Assembly: GCA_947088865.1 (NCBI GenBank) | Contig: CAMUHY010000001.1 | Location: 124,001 to 188,000, forward strand | Reading direction: 5' to 3' | Length of the DNA stretch: 64,000 nucleotides | Source: an uncultured Eubacterium sp. | GTDB lineage: Bacteria; Bacillota; Clostridia; Lachnospirales; Lachnospiraceae | In this document: piece by piece, positions 333-48,780 of the stretch | How positions within the stretch are numbered: position 1 is the stretch's first letter | Layout of the letters: every line of letters begins with the position of its first letter | The notes under the pieces: generated by a model | Told to the model about the DNA's origin: nothing | The model's database searches: none | What the model saw: only the letters and a program-made list of their open reading frames with translations | Program-made: the position numbers and the translations under genes

Positions 333-725
333 AAATGTCCCCAACAGCAATATACATGCTGTCAGGGACGTTTATACAACGTGGTGCCACCCATCTTTAC
401 AAGCAAACAAAAAAGCATACCCAAACTGGATATGCCACCGTTTTTCTTGACTCTTTCAATACAATATACGCCAAATAGCCTACAACTATATCTACCCTCT
501 ATAACGTGAGGTCTACGTCGCAGGCTACTGTCAATTCACCTTTGCATCTCCCAAACCCATTCCTAAAGGCTCTCCACACCAGCTCTCACCACCGCTGACT
601 CTCTGTAATGTACCTGCCTGAAGTACTATTTTGTTCATCGACTTTAAATGATTTAATTTTACAATAACAACAGATAGCACATTTTACGAACCATCCTTAT
701 ATCAATAAAATACTGTAACTTTATT
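320..725 (-). promoter_or_regulatory. T-box leader (probably tRNA-Trp sensing) for trpE
   Basis: Read on the minus strand, this leader has the hallmarks of a T-box. A Stem I apical region (GAGAGTCAGCGGTGGTGAGAG-like) lies near 582-605. The conserved T-box sequence GGGTGGCACCACG lies near 393-381. A strong terminator hairpin (GTCCC...GGGAC, about 337-368) is followed by a T-run. A UGG triplet at 559-557, in a GGAATGGG context on the 3' side of Stem I, is the best specifier candidate and points to tRNA-Trp. Family knowledge: uncharged tRNA binding disrupts the terminator and switches on amino-acid genes. The specifier is my reading by eye, not a folded model. Confidence 0.85.
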
Positions 726-2082: not shown

Positions 2083-3036
2083 TTAATCTCCATTTCCTAA
2101 AAGCTCATCAAGCTGCTTTAACATACGAGCTAACAATTCTTCTTGTGTAATATCATAGCAAATAGAAAAACAATCTCTTGCAAGACTATATTCATGGTCA
2201 TTCATCATTAACTCACCCACCCTGTAAATCACGCCTATTGTATCTGGGTTGGGTCCTGGCTCAATATCCGATTGTTCTAACATCTTTTGCATTTCCTTAA
2301 TAGACCACTGCGGCGTATCGTCACCCAACGCACTTTTAAGATATTCTAATTCACGGTCAGCATTTTCTGTATTATAATAAATATTACTATAAATATAGCA
2401 ACATCTTGCTGTCTGTGTATTATATTTTGATATATGATAATATCCCATATTTCTATAATAACGCGCCATCGTTGCCCTTGTGCAACATAATTTATAGGCT
2501 TCTTTGGTTGCAATCAAATAGCGTTCCATCATATTTAAATGTTTATAACATTCTGCCAAGCCAAGTATTGCATCTAAATCAACCGGATTCCAGCAAATGG
2601 CATCCTGATAAGCAGCTATGCCTGCCTTATATCTGCCCAGCTTGACGCTTAAATCACCATATGTTCTGTAATATTCCCCTATTGGAAGCTGTGTACAGCA
2701 AACTTGAACATCGGGCTTATAATAATAGGCATATACATAGTATTCCATAACATGATTTAAACTAATATAGATAGAATTATCATATTCTACATTCACCTTA
2801 GCGTCTTCTAAATGGACGGTTTCACTTTTTTGTACATATGATTGTATATCCTTTTGACTGATATCAATATGACCTCTGTTATCTATCATTCCTGCTTTTC
2901 GGACATCAGATTGTCTCTCTATACTTTCAAGGAGTTCTTCAATAAGCGCTGTTGCCTCATCAATTCTATCCATAGAAAACATCTGTTTAAAATCTGCAAA
3001 CTTCTCCTTTAGTTCTTCGATATTATCTAAATTCAT
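2083..3036 (-). CDS. Tetratricopeptide-repeat protein of unknown function
   Basis: A 317-residue protein without signal peptide or membrane segment. The N-terminal 70 residues are acidic and probably helical. The middle has TPR-like helix pairs, clearest at about residues 138-185 ('YKAGIAAYQDAICWNPVDLDAILGLA') and again near the C-terminus ('SLARDCFSICYDI'). It is rich in Tyr. TPRs bind proteins; no enzyme motif is visible. The ATG follows a GGAGG embedded in a short repeat also found near 29776 and 47310. It precedes the HAD phosphatase in the same transcription unit. Confidence 0.75.
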   Translation of the reverse strand: MNLDNIEELKEKFADFKQMFSMDRIDEATALIEELLESIERQSDVRKAGMIDNRGHIDISQKDIQSYVQKSETVHLEDAKVNVEYDNSIYISLNHVMEYYVYAYYYKPDVQVCCTQLPIGEYYRTYGDLSVKLGRYKAGIAAYQDAICWNPVDLDAILGLAECYKHLNMMERYLIATKEAYKLCCTRATMARYYRNMGYYHISKYNTQTARCCYIYSNIYYNTENADRELEYLKSALGDDTPQWSIKEMQKMLEQSDIEPGPNPDTIGVIYRVGELMMNDHEYSLARDCFSICYDITQEELLARMLKQLDELLGNGD

Positions 3037-3071
3037 ATTTAGCCTCCATGCTGCGACTAATTAATTTTTAA
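3037..3071. repeat. Short repeat carrying a ribosome site, copy 1
   Basis: The minus strand reads as an AT-rich segment, then CGCAGCATGGAGG just before the start codon at 3036. Similar blocks lie at 29776-29811 and 47310-47342. Confidence 0.5.
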
Positions 3072-3600
3072 GATTTTGTATCTTATCATTATATCTGCTA
3101 CATTCTAATTCCATTCTCTTAAAATCTAAGCACTGTTTTCTAGCCGCAAACTTCTCATCTGTAATATATTTCTGATAAAGAACATTTGCAGTATTAACTA
3201 AAACACTTATATATTCGTTACACCATTCTACTTCTTTAATAAGAAGTTCCTTTTTTCTTCTTGTATCCATATTATCATGTTTACGAATTTTAGTATCAAT
3301 CCGCTGTATCTGAGCATTTTCAACAGGTATCATAAGGTTAAAATTTAAAACTCCTATCAAAGCACCATGATATACTATTTTCTTAAAATCTATCTTATCG
3401 CGCATTTTTTTGTGCTTTTTCTTAGGTTTTGACAACGGTACACAATATTTGTGTTTATTGCATATAATAATTATACCAAGAAAAGGGCGTTCATCTTTCC
3501 CTATCTGTGGCGATACAGAAAAAACTCTATCATCAATATTATGTAAATTTCTAATGTACTTTATATCTATCCGATAAACTTCTAATGGTAACTGTGTCAT
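3061..3600 (-). CDS. ToxN/AbiQ-family type III toxin (endoribonuclease)
   Basis: A 179-residue protein with the pattern of the ToxN/AbiQ/CptN family. The N-terminal strand is 'VYRIDIKYIRNLHNIDDRV'. It is followed by 'ERPFLGIIIICNKHKYCVPLS', the basic run 'KPKKKHKKMRDKIDFKKI', then 'GVLNFNLMIPV', and a C-terminal helical part with 'EWCNEYISVLVNTANVLYQK'. Length fits the family (about 160-200 residues). Family knowledge: these are sequence-specific endoribonucleases held inactive by a repeated pseudoknot RNA encoded just upstream, and several abort phage infection. The expected layout is here: promoter, short RNA region, terminator hairpin, then toxin. GGGAG precedes the ATG. No protein antitoxin is present. 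The exact subfamily (ToxIN, CptIN or TenpIN) cannot be fixed by eye. Confidence 0.85.
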   Translation of the reverse strand: MTQLPLEVYRIDIKYIRNLHNIDDRVFSVSPQIGKDERPFLGIIIICNKHKYCVPLSKPKKKHKKMRDKIDFKKIVYHGALIGVLNFNLMIPVENAQIQRIDTKIRKHDNMDTRRKKELLIKEVEWCNEYISVLVNTANVLYQKYITDEKFAARKQCLDFKRMELECSRYNDKIQNLKN

Positions 3601-3620
3601 AAAATTCTCCCATAAAATAT

Positions 3621-3650
3621 TTCAAGGACTATGTCACCATAGTCCTTGAA
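3621..3650 (-). terminator. Hairpin between candidate RNA antitoxin and toxin
   Basis: A perfect 13-bp inverted repeat (TTCAAGGACTATG / CATAGTCCTTGAA) with a four-base loop. In type III systems such an attenuating terminator sets the excess of antitoxin RNA over toxin mRNA. The trailing sequence is AT-rich (AATATTTTATG) rather than a clean T-run. Confidence 0.7.
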
Positions 3651-3716
3651 TGTAGTGTCACCGTAGCGACGCTAACGCTTTTTGAACGTCCACTTATTGG
3701 CAGGACTCTCCTTCAA
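3621..3716 (-). ncRNA. Candidate type III antitoxin RNA (ToxI-like)
   Basis: A short non-coding stretch between a sigma-A promoter and the hairpin before the toxin gene. By eye it holds only one and a half to two degenerate units. TTCAA recurs with a 36-base period, and GGTGACA recurs after 24 bases. It also has GC-rich self-complementary pieces (AGCG...CGCT, GTCC...GGAC). The position and the 36-base period match ToxI-type RNAs; the repeat register is uncertain. Confidence 0.55.
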
Positions 3717-3720
3717 TAAA

Positions 3721-3748
3721 ATTCTACCAAATAAAAAAATTTTGTCAA
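3721..3748 (-). promoter_or_regulatory. Promoter of the toxin-antitoxin locus
   Basis: Minus-strand TTGACA (3748-3743) and TAGAAT (3726-3721) are separated by 16 bases. Transcription would start near 3714. Confidence 0.7.
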
Positions 3749-3820
3749 TATTTTTTTTAAATTTTTACAAAAATTGGCTCAATGCTAAAAATATACTAGT
3801 ACTTTTAGAACATTTCAACT

Positions 3821-5710
3821 TCAATCTTTATCCCTTTTTTTCTTATTCGTCTTTTTTTTCTTAGAAGTTCCCTTTTCTTTTAAACTTAATGTATTCGTCT
3901 TTAATACAACCGTTGTTCTTGGTGGAATCTTTACAAGCTTATTTTCAACCACTTCTATTTTTTCTGTTCCTGTGCTAAATTCAATTATCCACTTGCCTCC
4001 CTCTGCAAGCTTTGGTAACGCTAAATCATGCCATTCCCAATGTGAATTAAAACCAACATAGATTAATTCAAATGTTTGCTTATTTTGAATAATATCTGAA
4101 TCTGCATATTTTGAACAATACAATATCCCCATATGTCTGTTGTAATTTTCCATCACTTGATACCATGCGTTTGTCCCATGATAAGAAACATCTGGATATC
4201 CGCACGAAATAGGGTCTGCTGCCAGCAGCTGTTTTTTCATATGAAGAATTTTATTATCTTTTCTAAATTGTACAAGCTTTGTCACAAATTTTTCAATATC
4301 ACAGGCTTCACTGGAAGTTTTCCAATTTAACCATGATGTTTCGCCGTCAATACAATAAGGATTATTATTTCCTCCCTGCGAATTTTCAAACTCGTCACCT
4401 GCCAATATTAAAGGTGTTCCCGCCGATGTCAGCAACATAGTAAACGCATTTTTAATTTGTCGCTGTCGAAGTTCAATAATACGTTTCTTCCTTGACTTTC
4501 CTTCCACACCACAATTCCAGCTATAATTAAAATTTTCGCCATCTCGATTGTTTTCACCATTATTTTCATTATGCTTACGGTCAAAACTGACAAGGTCCAT
4601 CATTGTAAAACCATTATGATTGGTTATATAATTAATATTCGCACTGTTGTCAGGATTGCTTCTTGTAACATATGCAAACTGCTTTAACTGATTTTCATCA
4701 CCCTTTAAAAATTGACGAACAGTCTGCGTAAAGCCATTGTTATAATTTGCCATATGCTTATACGAACCGCGCTCCCCATTCCAATAAGTTGTGATAAGCT
4801 TTGTATCTGCAAGAATAGGGTCTTTGGAAAGAAGCTCCAATGCAGCGTCAGAAGCATACAGATGAATGCCATCTATATGATATTGTGTAACCCAGTATCT
4901 TGCACAATCTAAAATAAAATCTGATGATTCCTTATCAAAAAACATCTCCATAACAACCTCCATATGATTGGCATGGAGTGTTTTAATAACATTCTTTAAC
5001 TCGATTGTATAATCCGACCGCATATCTGATATTGAGGAAAAAGAAGCTTTTGGCGCAAAATGAAATCCTGCCTCATATCCCCAATAATTTACAGACGGCA
5101 TTATAATTTTCGGTTTATACAGTTCTTTTTTTGATTTATAAAGCTGTGAAAAACGATGAATCTCATCATATTCATATATTGGCATCAACTCTAGCGTTGT
5201 CACTCCTAATTTTTTAAGATGCTCTAATTTTTCAAGCAATCCTGCAAATGTTCCCTTGTGTTTTACCCCTGAAGTCCTGCTCTTTGTAAACCCTCTCACA
5301 TGAAGTTTATAAAAAATACAATCCTCATAAGGTATATGAGGTTTTACATCGCCTTCCCAATCAAAAGTATCCAGACACACCCTACTCAAATAAGGTGTTT
5401 TTCCTATTTCTTCATCATTGATGCCAAATTTACTGCATCCTGTAATTGTTTTTGCATAGGGGTCAATCATTTTCATTCCTCCTACTTCATAACAGTAAAG
5501 CGCCTTGTCCATCGACACACCGCTTACTGCACATGCAAAGACATTGCCCGTTTTATAGGTACTATCTAATATAATCTCATGTTTTAACTCATATTTTAAA
5601 TCATATATCAATAAACTTATCTGTTTTGCCTCACTGCTAAATGCAAAGTTGTAATTCTTGCCATTTTTGCTACTTCCCATAGCAATCGGATTTCCTTTAG
5701 CCACTATCAT
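3821..5710 (-). CDS. GH13 glycogen-debranching-enzyme-like protein with a degenerate active site
   Basis: A 629-residue protein with an N-terminal CBM48-like region (about 1-100), a GH13 barrel (about 130-490) and a C-terminal beta domain. It ends in a Lys-rich tail. Overall it follows the GlgX/isoamylase/pullulanase group: 'NYWGYEAGFHFAPKASF', 'LILAGDEFENSQGGNNNPYC', 'ETSWLNWK'. The four GH13 catalytic regions are altered. Region I reads 'VVMEMFFD'. Region II is 'DGIHLYA' (nucleophile Asp becomes Tyr285). Region III is 'LITTYWN' (acid Glu becomes Thr308). Region IV is 'TNHNGF' (HD becomes HN, Asn366). So all three catalytic acids are missing, although the reading frame is intact. It may be a glucan-binding or regulatory pseudoenzyme. 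GAGGTGACAT precedes the ATG. Confidence 0.8.
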   Translation of the reverse strand: MIVAKGNPIAMGSSKNGKNYNFAFSSEAKQISLLIYDLKYELKHEIILDSTYKTGNVFACAVSGVSMDKALYCYEVGGMKMIDPYAKTITGCSKFGINDEEIGKTPYLSRVCLDTFDWEGDVKPHIPYEDCIFYKLHVRGFTKSRTSGVKHKGTFAGLLEKLEHLKKLGVTTLELMPIYEYDEIHRFSQLYKSKKELYKPKIIMPSVNYWGYEAGFHFAPKASFSSISDMRSDYTIELKNVIKTLHANHMEVVMEMFFDKESSDFILDCARYWVTQYHIDGIHLYASDAALELLSKDPILADTKLITTYWNGERGSYKHMANYNNGFTQTVRQFLKGDENQLKQFAYVTRSNPDNSANINYITNHNGFTMMDLVSFDRKHNENNGENNRDGENFNYSWNCGVEGKSRKKRIIELRQRQIKNAFTMLLTSAGTPLILAGDEFENSQGGNNNPYCIDGETSWLNWKTSSEACDIEKFVTKLVQFRKDNKILHMKKQLLAADPISCGYPDVSYHGTNAWYQVMENYNRHMGILYCSKYADSDIIQNKQTFELIYVGFNSHWEWHDLALPKLAEGGKWIIEFSTGTEKIEVVENKLVKIPPRTTVVLKTNTLSLKEKGTSKKKKTNKKKRDKD

Positions 5711-6633: not shown

Positions 6634-6721
6634 ATTTTGCTTTCCTCCATATGATTACATTTATAGATATTGATATTATTTTGAGAATTTATGTTGATTT
6701 TATTCACTTCTAACTATTTTT

Positions 6722-7804
6722 TTATTTTAAAGTTTCACTGTTATTTAATACAAGCGTACTATATAAAAATAATACATCACAATTATCAAAATTGATAAAC
6801 TGTCCCAGATAATCAGGCTGAATATAGCGAATATCTACCAGTGTTATCTGAGAATATCCACTAATAAGCAAAGGTGCAATACTAGAACCAAACGAATCCC
6901 TAAATAATATCAAATTTTTACCTTCTTGCACATTGGAGTTTTTTAATGTAACAAGAGACAATGAACCCGACAAAAACATTTCATAAGGGTCACGTCCTGT
7001 TGCTTTTTCCATATCATATACGGTTATTTCTTTATTATTTTGCCCGTCATACACATAGCACATATCTATGGCATCTCCTGTTAGATATTGCAGCGATTCT
7101 GGTTTAAGCGGTAGCGCTGCCTGTCCATAATACACACCATAAAAATCCTGTGTTAATGTATGAATTTTATAATCCGAAGAAAGCGCTGTTCCCATTTTTT
7201 GTGCCAGCCTTTCTGCCACATCTATAATTCGTTCCTGACGCCAATGCGTATCGGTTTTATAATAATCATCTTTTTCTAAAAGCTCTGCAATCGAAATATA
7301 TTGCGCAAAATCCATTTTTTGCTTCATCTGTTCTTCCAATTTTCCATAATCCATTGAAAGATGTCCACTATCTTTTGCCAAAAAACAATTTTTATCTGGA
7401 ATAACCGAGAAATACACTCTATTATTTTTTGTTAAATATTTTTCACATATATACTGAAATCGTTTTACTGCTCGATTTAAAGAACCCTCATTCAATGGAT
7501 ATTCCACTGCTGAAATAAAACCATCCGAAACGTAAATCCCATTATTATCTCTCTTAAAAAAGACATGATTTGCTGTCACCGCTTTTAATGTTCTAAATGA
7601 TGCACGAAATGGAAACGTATCCACAGCATACGTTTCAAAATCCGTCATAAAACGTCCACTCCATATATTTTGTGCCTGCAATGCTGGCATAGAAGCCAGC
7701 TTTCTGCGCTCACTATCCGAATATTGTGCCTTTGGCAAAAACACACAAAATAAAAATCCTACCGCCAAAAACATTGCAAATAAAATACATGTGATTTTTT
7801 TCAT
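6722..7804 (-). CDS. DHHW/AlgX-like protein for polysaccharide O-acetylation
   Basis: A 360-residue protein with one N-terminal membrane anchor or signal segment (about residues 4-24). The signature 'TDTHWRQERI' is near residue 183, and a SGNH-like 'LILFRDSFGSSIAPLL' near 305. These match the DHHW family, related to AlgJ/AlgX, which moves acetyl groups onto exopolysaccharide outside the membrane. It follows the MBOAT gene by nine bases with its own GGAGG, so the pair is an operon. The MBOAT brings the acyl group across the membrane and this protein probably places it on the glycan. The substrate polymer is unknown. Confidence 0.85.
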   Translation of the reverse strand: MKKITCILFAMFLAVGFLFCVFLPKAQYSDSERRKLASMPALQAQNIWSGRFMTDFETYAVDTFPFRASFRTLKAVTANHVFFKRDNNGIYVSDGFISAVEYPLNEGSLNRAVKRFQYICEKYLTKNNRVYFSVIPDKNCFLAKDSGHLSMDYGKLEEQMKQKMDFAQYISIAELLEKDDYYKTDTHWRQERIIDVAERLAQKMGTALSSDYKIHTLTQDFYGVYYGQAALPLKPESLQYLTGDAIDMCYVYDGQNNKEITVYDMEKATGRDPYEMFLSGSLSLVTLKNSNVQEGKNLILFRDSFGSSIAPLLISGYSQITLVDIRYIQPDYLGQFINFDNCDVLFLYSTLVLNNSETLK

Positions 7805-7813
7805 ATTTCCTCC

Positions 7814-9211
7814 TTAGAACCGAAAATACAGAAACGGATTAAATGAACCATCTACCAAATAAGCCGTTATCACAAGCAATAACACAAGAAGCACAAACGG
7901 CTCTATTCTATTTAAGATTTTTTTGCCTGTTGGTTTATGGCAAACCATCTTTATAATATGTTGTATTGCTGGCGTTGCACCTATCATTGCCACAACTATA
8001 ATCACAAAAAAACTATACAGGCAATAAAGCGCTTGTGCCGATACAAGCGGAACTCCTCCAATACCAAAAAGCCCTTTGATATCTGAAAATGCCTGTCCCA
8101 TATCTTGTGCATTAAAAATAAGAAAACTAATCATTGCAAAAAATAAAACATAAAGATGAGAACATACTTTACTTTCTTTTAAATATTTTAACAGCCATAC
8201 TTTTTCAATCATTAATAATACAGCAAAAAATAAGCCCCATACAATGAAATTCCATGCTGCTCCATGCCAAAATCCAGTAAGCATCCACACCACTAAAATA
8301 TTAAAAAACTGTCTGCCTTTTTTGACGCGATTTCCGCCAAGCGGAATATAGACATAATCCCTAAACCATGAACCCAATGAAATATGCCAGCGGCGCCAAA
8401 ATTCTGTAATACTAGCAGAAATATAGGGATAATTAAAATTTTCTAAAAACTGAAATCCAAAGATTTTCCCTAATCCAATCGCCATATCACTATAACCTGA
8501 AAAATCAAAATAAATATGGAGTCCAAAAGCAAGCGCATATAACCAATAAAATAATACCGATTTTTCATCCGAACCACGAAACACATTGCAAAGCTCTCCC
8601 AATTGATTTGCCAACAATACTTTTTTTGCCAAGCCGATTACAAATCGCCTAATCCCTTCAGCCGCCATATCCCATGAGTGTTTTCTTTCCTCTAATTGTT
8701 TGGCTATATCGGAATAGCGAACAATCGGTCCTGCAATCAACTGTGGAAACATAGCAATATAAGCTGCCATATTAATTATATTTTTTTGTGCTTCTTCCCC
8801 TCTATATATATCAACAATATAACTAATCATCTGAAATGTATAAAAACTAATGCCAATTGGCAATACCACCTTTAATAAAGGTATACCAAGTCCTGTTATA
8901 GCATTAAAATTTGTGATAAAAAAATCGGCATATTTAAAATATACCAAAAAAGAAAGACTAATCATTATAGAAAGAACACAAAAAACTTGCCCTGCTTTTT
9001 TTCCTCTATATGTTTCTACCAGTCGTCCAAATCCATACCCTAATACAATTAAACTCGCCATCAAAAAAACATACTTTGGTTCTCCCCATGCGTAAAATAT
9101 AAGGCTGCTTAATAACAAAACCATATTTTTTAAACGCTTGGGCGACAAAAAATAGAAAGCTATTGTAAGCGGCAAAAAATAATATAAAAATGTAATACTT
9201 GAAAACAGCAT
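7814..9211 (-). CDS. MBOAT-family membrane O-acyltransferase (AlgI/DltB-like)
   Basis: A 465-residue polytopic membrane protein with about 10-11 hydrophobic segments. Family landmarks are 'LPIGISFYTFQMISY', 'FDFSGYSDMAIGLGKIFG', 'FWRRWHISLGSWFRDYVYIP' and 'GFWHGAAWNFIVWG', whose His is the conserved catalytic residue. Such proteins take acyl groups from a cytoplasmic donor and deliver them to exported polysaccharide. The partner DHHW protein lies directly downstream, which favours exopolysaccharide O-acetylation over D-alanylation of teichoic acid (no dlt genes are nearby). AAGGAG precedes the ATG. Confidence 0.9.
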   Translation of the reverse strand: MLFSSITFLYYFLPLTIAFYFLSPKRLKNMVLLLSSLIFYAWGEPKYVFLMASLIVLGYGFGRLVETYRGKKAGQVFCVLSIMISLSFLVYFKYADFFITNFNAITGLGIPLLKVVLPIGISFYTFQMISYIVDIYRGEEAQKNIINMAAYIAMFPQLIAGPIVRYSDIAKQLEERKHSWDMAAEGIRRFVIGLAKKVLLANQLGELCNVFRGSDEKSVLFYWLYALAFGLHIYFDFSGYSDMAIGLGKIFGFQFLENFNYPYISASITEFWRRWHISLGSWFRDYVYIPLGGNRVKKGRQFFNILVVWMLTGFWHGAAWNFIVWGLFFAVLLMIEKVWLLKYLKESKVCSHLYVLFFAMISFLIFNAQDMGQAFSDIKGLFGIGGVPLVSAQALYCLYSFFVIIVVAMIGATPAIQHIIKMVCHKPTGKKILNRIEPFVLLVLLLVITAYLVDGSFNPFLYFRF

Positions 9212-10820: not shown

Positions 10821-10893
10821 AGCTTCATATCGGACTTGAACCGATGACCTCTTCATTACGAGTGAAGCGCTCTACCAACTGAGCTAATGAAGC
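10821..10893 (-). tRNA. tRNA-Thr (anticodon CGU)
   Basis: A complete cloverleaf on the minus strand. The acceptor stem is GCTTCAT/ATGAAGC. The D-arm is AGCTCAGTTGGTAGAGC. The anticodon stem CTTCA/TGAAG encloses the loop CTCGTAA with anticodon CGT. The T-arm contains GGTTCAAGTCC. The discriminator is T and no CCA is encoded. CGU reads ACG, so the amino acid is threonine. A fragment of the dispersed palindromic repeat lies just beyond its 5' end. Confidence 0.95.
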
Positions 10894-48365: not shown

Positions 48366-48394
48366 ATTATACTTGTCTTTAACTTATAAAAAAA

Positions 48395-48780
48395 TGAGCA
48401 GCACGATAAGCCGGGTTATGTCCACGCAATCGTGTGATGATTATCTATCTAGTTTTACTGTCGCCAATAAAATCAAGCAACCTACCTAAAAGCACGACGG
48501 GCAGCCGTATCGCTTTTATCTTGGTCTTGCTTCGAGTGGGGTTTACATAGCCAAAACTGTTGCCAGTTCTGCGGTAGTCTCTTACACTGCCTTTCCACCA
48601 TCACCAATATATTTAAATTGTAAACAAATTACAATATAAATATATTGGCAGTTTCTTTCTGTTGCACTTTCCTTAGAGTCGCCTCCACCAGACGTTATCT
48701 GGCACCCTGCCCTATGAAGCCCGGACTTTCCTCACCTGCTGCCTTTCGGCAATTGCAGCCGCAATCATCTGTGCTACTCA
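48395..48780 (-). ncRNA. rnpB: RNase P RNA (type A)
   Basis: The catalytic RNA of RNase P, which trims tRNA 5' ends. Conserved pieces on the minus strand are GAGGAAAGTCCGGGC, CATAGGGCAGGGTGCCAG, GTGCAACAGAAAG, GTAAACCCCACTCGAAGCAA and the 3' ACCCGGCTTATCG. The P12 region is an AT-rich extended stem near 48605-48655. Ends are estimated by comparison with known RNAs from memory. The promoter is not clear. The 200 bases beyond 48780 are AT-rich and hold no gene up to the YoeB remnant. Confidence 0.95.

Follow-up and report, generated by a model that had tools for sequence, protein, structure and literature searches.

A putative ToxIN-like type III toxin–antitoxin cassette with a non-repetitive antitoxin RNA in an uncultured Eubacterium sp.

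Type III toxin–antitoxin loci are arranged in the order promoter, RNA, terminator and toxN, and tandem repeats within the RNA are both a criterion in their published classification (PMC5086642) and a feature by which machine-generated systems were recently filtered in a screen (PMC12804078). The ToxI RNAs comprise 5.5 repeats of 36 nt in Pectobacterium and 2.9 repeats of 34 nt in B. thuringiensis, and antiQ of the lactococcal antiQ–AbiQ system has 2.8 repeats (PMC5086642). Few repeats are also found in the pseudoknot RNA of CptIN from Eubacterium rectale, which has 2.1 (PMC12373285). Tandem arrays are cut by ToxN between units, and the active site holds the 3′ tail of one unit together with the 5′ tail of the next (PMC8860590, PMC5086642). 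The ToxIN complex is a closed ring of three. Herein we describe a locus within 64,000 nt of DNA (hereafter the window) from an uncultured Eubacterium sp. (contig CAMUHY010000001.1, positions 124,001–188,000) that, judged from its sequence, is probably a horizontally acquired ToxIN-like type III toxin–antitoxin cassette with a non-repetitive antitoxin. In place of an array, the RNA upstream of the toxin gene appears to carry a single ToxI-type pseudoknot, followed by an AAAAGC junction, then a conserved 9-bp hairpin and finally a terminator.

The toxin gene, toxN (3061–3600, on the minus strand, as are all elements of the locus), is an intact open reading frame (ORF) encoding a 179-aa endoribonuclease of the ToxN/AbiQ family. 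Both this family assignment and the type III classification had been proposed in a first-pass annotation of the window, and both are supported here. A GGGAG sequence at 3607–3611, recognised by eye, is probably its ribosome-binding site. Ahead of it lies a Rho-independent terminator-like hairpin (3621–3650), a perfect inverted repeat of 13 bp (3621–3633/3638–3650) with a GNRA loop and a T-rich tail on the minus strand, and further upstream is a promoter (3721–3748) of the form TTGACA-16-TAGAAT with a TG ahead of the −10 box and a predicted start at approximately 3714–3713; the annotation had named both features, and both are present in the sequence. The promoter matches 11 of 12 consensus bases, although such matches are not uncommon (6 in 901 bases, with 4.0 expected). 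The non-coding stretch 3716–3601 folds better than 200/200 shuffles (z −5.24), with the 13-bp hairpin supplying much of this. As far as sequence features go, promoter, RNA and terminator thus precede toxN on the same strand, and the locus has in common with ToxIN of Pectobacterium atrosepticum, E. coli and B. thuringiensis the ToxN fold, a ToxI-like H-pseudoknot and this gene order. It differs from them in having one unit and a different hairpin instead of tandem ToxI repeats, and in its active-site triplet. By toxin and layout it is ToxIN-like, but it does not qualify by the published tandem-array criterion.

The single ToxI-type unit, unit 1 (3688–3713), reads GG(AGA)GUCC(UG)CC(AAUAAGU)GGAC and is predicted to form an H-pseudoknot, in which stem S1 pairs GG (3711–3710) with CC (3700–3699) and stem S2 pairs GUCC (3706–3703) with GGAC (3691–3688). 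It was aligned separately, because the general alignment A1 shifts S2 by one column in one clade; the resulting alignment, A4, holds 21 hand-chosen one-unit rows and eight units from the tandem loci L002, L030 and L054 (29 rows, 28 distinct; identical rows are counted once in all pair counts). Here, 82.6 % of cells were paired and 22 were double-changed, compared with 8.0 upon shuffling (0/500 shuffles as high), and with the tandem units added both stems carry double changes, which points to the H-pseudoknot of ToxIN systems. The −10 box lies 9 nt ahead of the first stem in 35/44 loci and 8–10 nt ahead in 40/44, or in 34/42 and 39/42, respectively, once L030 and L054 are set aside as tandem, the spacing in L054 being that of its second unit. 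This regularity is in part selection, because the best-scoring promoter within a 40-nt range was taken. The usual distance from −10 box to start is 6–8 nt, and at this spacing the transcript would begin 1–3 nt ahead of the pseudoknot.

Unit 1 is followed by the junction AAAAGCG (3676–3682), the proposed single site of ToxN cleavage; the E. coli ToxIN cleavage site, for comparison, is GAAAU (PMC8860590). This junction is identical in 34/34 rows of alignment A2, and no AAAAGC occurs past the subsequent hairpin in the alignment. Beyond the alignment, junctions of other sequence are found in L009, L061, L067, L141 and L146, the hairpins of which contain an internal loop by eye. The hairpin itself, element 2 (3653–3674), has 9 bp, a UACG loop and, in the window, a C-A mismatch at pair 4, a pair that is open in 10/21 distinct rows. 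A 9-bp hairpin with a loop of 4–5 nt recurs across A2 (34 rows, 21 distinct), with 94.2 % of cells paired, 34 double-changed cells against 9.3 upon shuffling (0/500) and a covariation score of 0.523 against 0.218 (0/500); the structure was derived from the same sequences that were scored, and kinship between rows inflates these values. Further pair types give a weaker signal (15 against 12.7; 42/500), and sliding the partner strand by 1–3 columns drops pairing to 24–66 %. A2 excludes L049, the stem of which is shifted by one base, and neither A1 nor A2 includes L059, L061, L067 or L009; L014, whose contig starts inside unit 1, is absent from both, and L013, L026 and L033, which duplicate other rows, were removed. 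Amongst ten sequences from outside the hairpin alignment examined in an ungapped test, seven showed 8 or 9 of the 9 pairs; eight of the ten came from a model in which this hairpin is scored and so are not independent of it, L125 and L047 share one hairpin, the toxin led to L141, and L146 emerged from both toxin and model. A covariation comparison with homologous loci, suggested by the first-pass annotation as a check, hence favours the hairpin, and favours the pseudoknot of unit 1 with tandem units added, whilst being uninformative for the pseudoknot from the clade alone.

Folding of element 2 as a pseudoknot (GCG with CGC) was also considered. In this form 93.7 % of cells were paired, with zero double changes and failure in 4/21 distinct rows. 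The hairpin is preferred because the pseudoknot pair is lost where the hairpin pair goes from GU to UA on both sides (4/21), although a weak pseudoknot may form in part of the clade. Past the hairpin, a TTCAA sequence enters the terminator stem in the window's own clade only.

With regard to repetition, the first-pass annotation had described a weak 36-base period, which was confirmed neither by shuffling nor by Tandem Repeats Finder. Identity at lag 36 within 3716–3621 is 22/60, a value as high in 64/2000 shuffles at that lag and equalled at some lag of 20–47 in 853/2000; upon exclusion of the terminator it is 11/30, with corresponding counts of 178/2000 and 1181/2000. Tandem Repeats Finder returned 0 rows at the window locus, and 2.9 copies of 34 nt at a control ToxN locus of the same genus (L002). 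A tandem array as used in classification (PMC5086642) was thus not found by unit scan, lag test or Tandem Repeats Finder, nor were the approximately two 45-nt repeats of CptIN found by unit scan and Tandem Repeats Finder. Of the "few, degenerate repeats" previously proposed, few stands, there being a single pseudoknot unit; degenerate is less apt, element 2 being a separate hairpin that varies in sequence whilst its pairing stays. Element 2 may nevertheless descend from a ToxI repeat. It had also been suggested that a GGTGACA core shared between the hairpins reflects part of the last unit folded into the terminator, which in that form is not supported. The match exists (10/11 bases), but is best read as coincidence, because 18 of the 21 closest rows (window to L042) have in their terminator a GNRA tetraloop of changing sequence (GTGA, GCAA, GAAA, GAGA or GTAA).

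A scan for ToxI-type units upstream of 53 loci found one unit in 41, two in 2 (L030 and L054, both tandem by eye) and none in 10. Those without a unit comprise L002, L055, L057, L063 and L064, which are tandem by eye, L061 with a variant single unit, L008 and L010 with other RNAs, L014, which is cut off by the contig end, and L062, with an intron-like sequence described below; L004, L005, L040 and L041 lie outside the 53 as repeats of loci in the set (L026 and L025, L021, L023). In a phylogeny of 44 toxins, whose RNA types were assigned by eye (one-plus-hairpin for 33 and tandem for 9, with 2 left unlabelled), RNA type requires 2 changes against a shuffled mean of 8.4. Of the 33 one-plus-hairpin toxins, 30 share a branch (88/85, not starred) that also takes in a broken, unlabelled relative, and L009, L061 and L067 form a separate one (100/98). 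A single label change suffices in 24 % of bootstrap trees, and long branches leave the deep joins unsure. When 392 genomes of the order were searched in addition, 10 had a toxin match at E ≤ 1e-30, of which five were new: L141, which is one-plus-hairpin by eye, and L142–L145, which are tandem. Ten further stretches added two loci with one unit (L146, L147), five tandem loci (L148, L150, L151, L153, L155) and an RNA without toxin (L149); no array was seen in L152, with 99 bases upstream, or in L154.

By these sequences the one-unit-plus-hairpin clade appears to be mostly from Lachnospiraceae. Relatives at 83–90 % identity occur in records named Bacteroides, Bacteroidales and Gastranaerophilales, which may be mis-binned. 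No relative was found on viral contigs in a scan that detects close relatives only, and matches to plasmids (5 records) and phages (1) were all below 60 % identity. The window genome has no second convincing copy of the RNA; its other matches have E-values of 0.06 and 0.38, the former overlapping the terminator on the opposite strand. Several surveyed loci display features of their own. Contig 6 of genome G018 carries two different ToxN loci approximately 2.6 kb apart (L005/L026 and L009), each with one unit and a hairpin. By eye, each of the three ToxI units of L055 has extra hairpin-forming sequence in its second pseudoknot loop, L062 has, immediately before toxN, sequence resembling a group II intron at its 3′ end, and L010 has a repeat of approximately 38 nt with another sequence, present as two direct copies ahead of a distant ToxN relative, which is probably another antitoxin type.

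The predicted cassette spans 3061–3775, from promoter to toxN stop, as delimited by similarity borders and flanking genes. DNA similarity to 27 loci reaches outermost borders of 3062 and 3775; other matches to these loci are confined to window 6721–8566 in L011 and a second ToxN in L026. The neighbours of the cassette, a glgX-like gene (3821–5710) and a gene for a tetratricopeptide repeat (TPR) protein (2083–3036), are absent from the available DNA of all 27 loci, several of these stretches being short. Both are found in 20 of 21 other genomes of the genus, G010 having no TPR match, and they adjoin in 20/20, with gaps of −17 to 306 bp between match ends against 787 bp in the window genome, which argues that the cassette was inserted there. 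It contains no transposase gene. In L011, a Roseburia metagenome-assembled genome, the toxN cassette (2828–3529) lies approximately 1 kb from a homologue (6–1870) of window 6721–8566, with no glgX-like gene between the two.

Taken together, these features suggest how the RNA would operate. Transcription would start at the 5′ edge of the pseudoknot, the 5′ end of the freed pseudoknot being made by RNA polymerase, and the terminator would hold the RNA in excess over the toxin. One ToxN cut per transcript, within the AAAA of the junction, would free an antitoxin monomer; a single cut is the simplest reading because AAAAGC between unit 1 and element 2 is the sole conserved junction of this kind. 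Across the ToxN active site from the pseudoknot, the hairpin would stand in for the adjacent repeat. Pseudoknot-bound ToxN would be inactive, and loss of the RNA would free the RNase and stop growth. A bolder and tentative version, in which we place little confidence, is a single-site antitoxin, whereby element 2 mimics the rod of the missing neighbour's coaxially stacked pseudoknot and a small capped complex forms rather than a ring, the particle being one toxin to one RNA, or open. The nine layers that would stack in element 2, often defective around the fourth, resemble the ToxI stack of four-pair stems by count only.

Other explanations for element 2 were weighed against this. It may lie outside the antitoxin and control read-through into toxN or RNA stability, a possible if doubtful role that the sequence evidence fits equally well, given that the aligned loci place it after the antitoxin unit and before the terminator. 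On the other side, the window's AGUCCU/AGGACU match, noted in a by-eye inspection for pairing of the terminator arm with unit 1, is lost in clades with another terminator. That it is instead the decayed second repeat of a degenerate tandem array, akin to the partial last repeats of known antitoxins, seems unlikely. The junction and register agree with tandem relatives (34-nt period), and a three-pair stem joining the junction GCG to the loop is possible in 17/21 distinct rows, yet compensatory changes preserve the hairpin as its sequence turns over, and the remaining 4/21 rows lose the pseudoknot pair in the manner described above.

It is very unlikely that the locus is an inactive relic or a domesticated RNase. 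The ORF is intact, the ratio of nonsynonymous to synonymous substitution (dN/dS) of toxN is about 0.1, and promoter, both RNA elements and terminator are all in place; these features fit the active system proposed by the first-pass annotation, activity itself being a prediction. On the other side stand the replacement of ToxN S53 by lysine and the number of RNAs lacking an intact toxin. Searching 397 genomes of the family with a covariance model of the RNA gave matches in 39 at E ≤ 0.01. At E ≤ 1e-6 there were 34 matches, with the toxin directly downstream full in 18 (at least 150 of 179 residues, including matches with a stop near the end), partial in 7 and absent in 9, such that 16/34 have a partial toxin or none. 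The alignment behind the model, whose rows were chosen by toxin, accounts for 18 of the 34; for the other 16 the counts are 3, 4 and 9. At E ≤ 1e-3 they are 20, 8 and 13 of 41 matches, three tandem loci included, and 7 of the 48 listed matches, weaker than this, were dropped from the toxin counts. Conversely, all 18 best toxin matches have an RNA-model match upstream; one (G289:C75) is the tandem locus L148, leaving 17/18 of the one-unit kind. Antitoxin RNA and promoter-like sequence without a ToxN match downstream are seen in L113, L115, L125, L130, L131, L132 and L149, with unit 1 and hairpin having drifted in L115; L133, one of the nine matches without toxin, has an altered unit 1 and has lost element 2 too. 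If the toxin must be lost first, RNA without toxin is expected, but is no proof of antitoxin function.

Several results weigh against the interpretation of the locus favoured here, that of a functional toxin held by one pseudoknot unit and a hairpin. The T52-S53-x-K55 of ToxN is S-K-x-K in the window toxin; by alignment, K33/T52/S53/K55/W57 (numbering of PMC8860590) correspond to R38/S57/K58/K60/K62, and K33A, T52V, K55A and W57F each abolished E. coli ToxN toxicity. K33 to R occurs in the published ToxN clusters, amongst which S53 to K was not seen in the text available (PMC8860590). Pectobacterium ToxI needed 2.5 repeats and antiQ at least 1.8 (PMC5086642). These minima speak against one unit sufficing, unless the remainder comes from element 2; the requirement given in a later paper is one complete repeat or more (PMC12373285). 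Within the clade unit 1 hardly varies (85.7 % of cells paired, 247/500 shuffles as high; 37 rows, 27 distinct), and covariation there consequently says nothing. With tandem units added, its pairs with a double change (4 against 3.7; 355/500) and further pair types (8 against 9.4) do not stand out from shuffles. Element 2 has 6/9 pairs with a double change against 4.6 (86/500), and 3/10 sequences of the ungapped test (L115, L141, L146) do not stand out. Weak RNA-model matches include the tandem loci L148, L150 and L151.

In the sister-clade toxins L050, L051, L052 and L053, LSHPV or LSHAV stands at the LTSPK of ToxN, placing V at the K55 position, and the RNA is kept; catalysis may be shifted in these proteins, to judge by their residues. 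Elsewhere in the window, Rfam at gathering thresholds identified only RNase P RNA class A (48391–48780, minus strand), a tRNA (10821–10893, minus strand) and a T-box leader (361–647, minus strand; RF00230, 104.7 bits), the last of these ahead of a gene that extends beyond the start of the window and by eye resembles a component of anthranilate or aminobenzoate synthase. On 3000–3900 at E ≤ 10, Rfam gave 8 matches, all below gathering and none a type III antitoxin.

No description of a one-pseudoknot-plus-hairpin design was found in a literature search that lay outside preprints, covered few subscription papers and in part read "ToxIN" as "toxin". One pseudo-ToxI repeat, when cloned by itself, failed to suppress ToxN (PMC3475682). 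In Clostridiales and Leptotrichia, RNAs that are candidates for structure and lie immediately ahead of ToxN (HMP2_3156, HMP2_5421 and HMP2_14852, one being 106 bp) have been called possible ToxI antitoxins (Fremin and Bhatt 2021, PMC8040213). To judge by description and position, these may include the window RNA. Repeat-based criteria would reject a clade that has retained the pseudoknot without the repeats, and the window locus would offer a natural minimal RNA for studying what repeats are for and whether inhibition depends on the ring.
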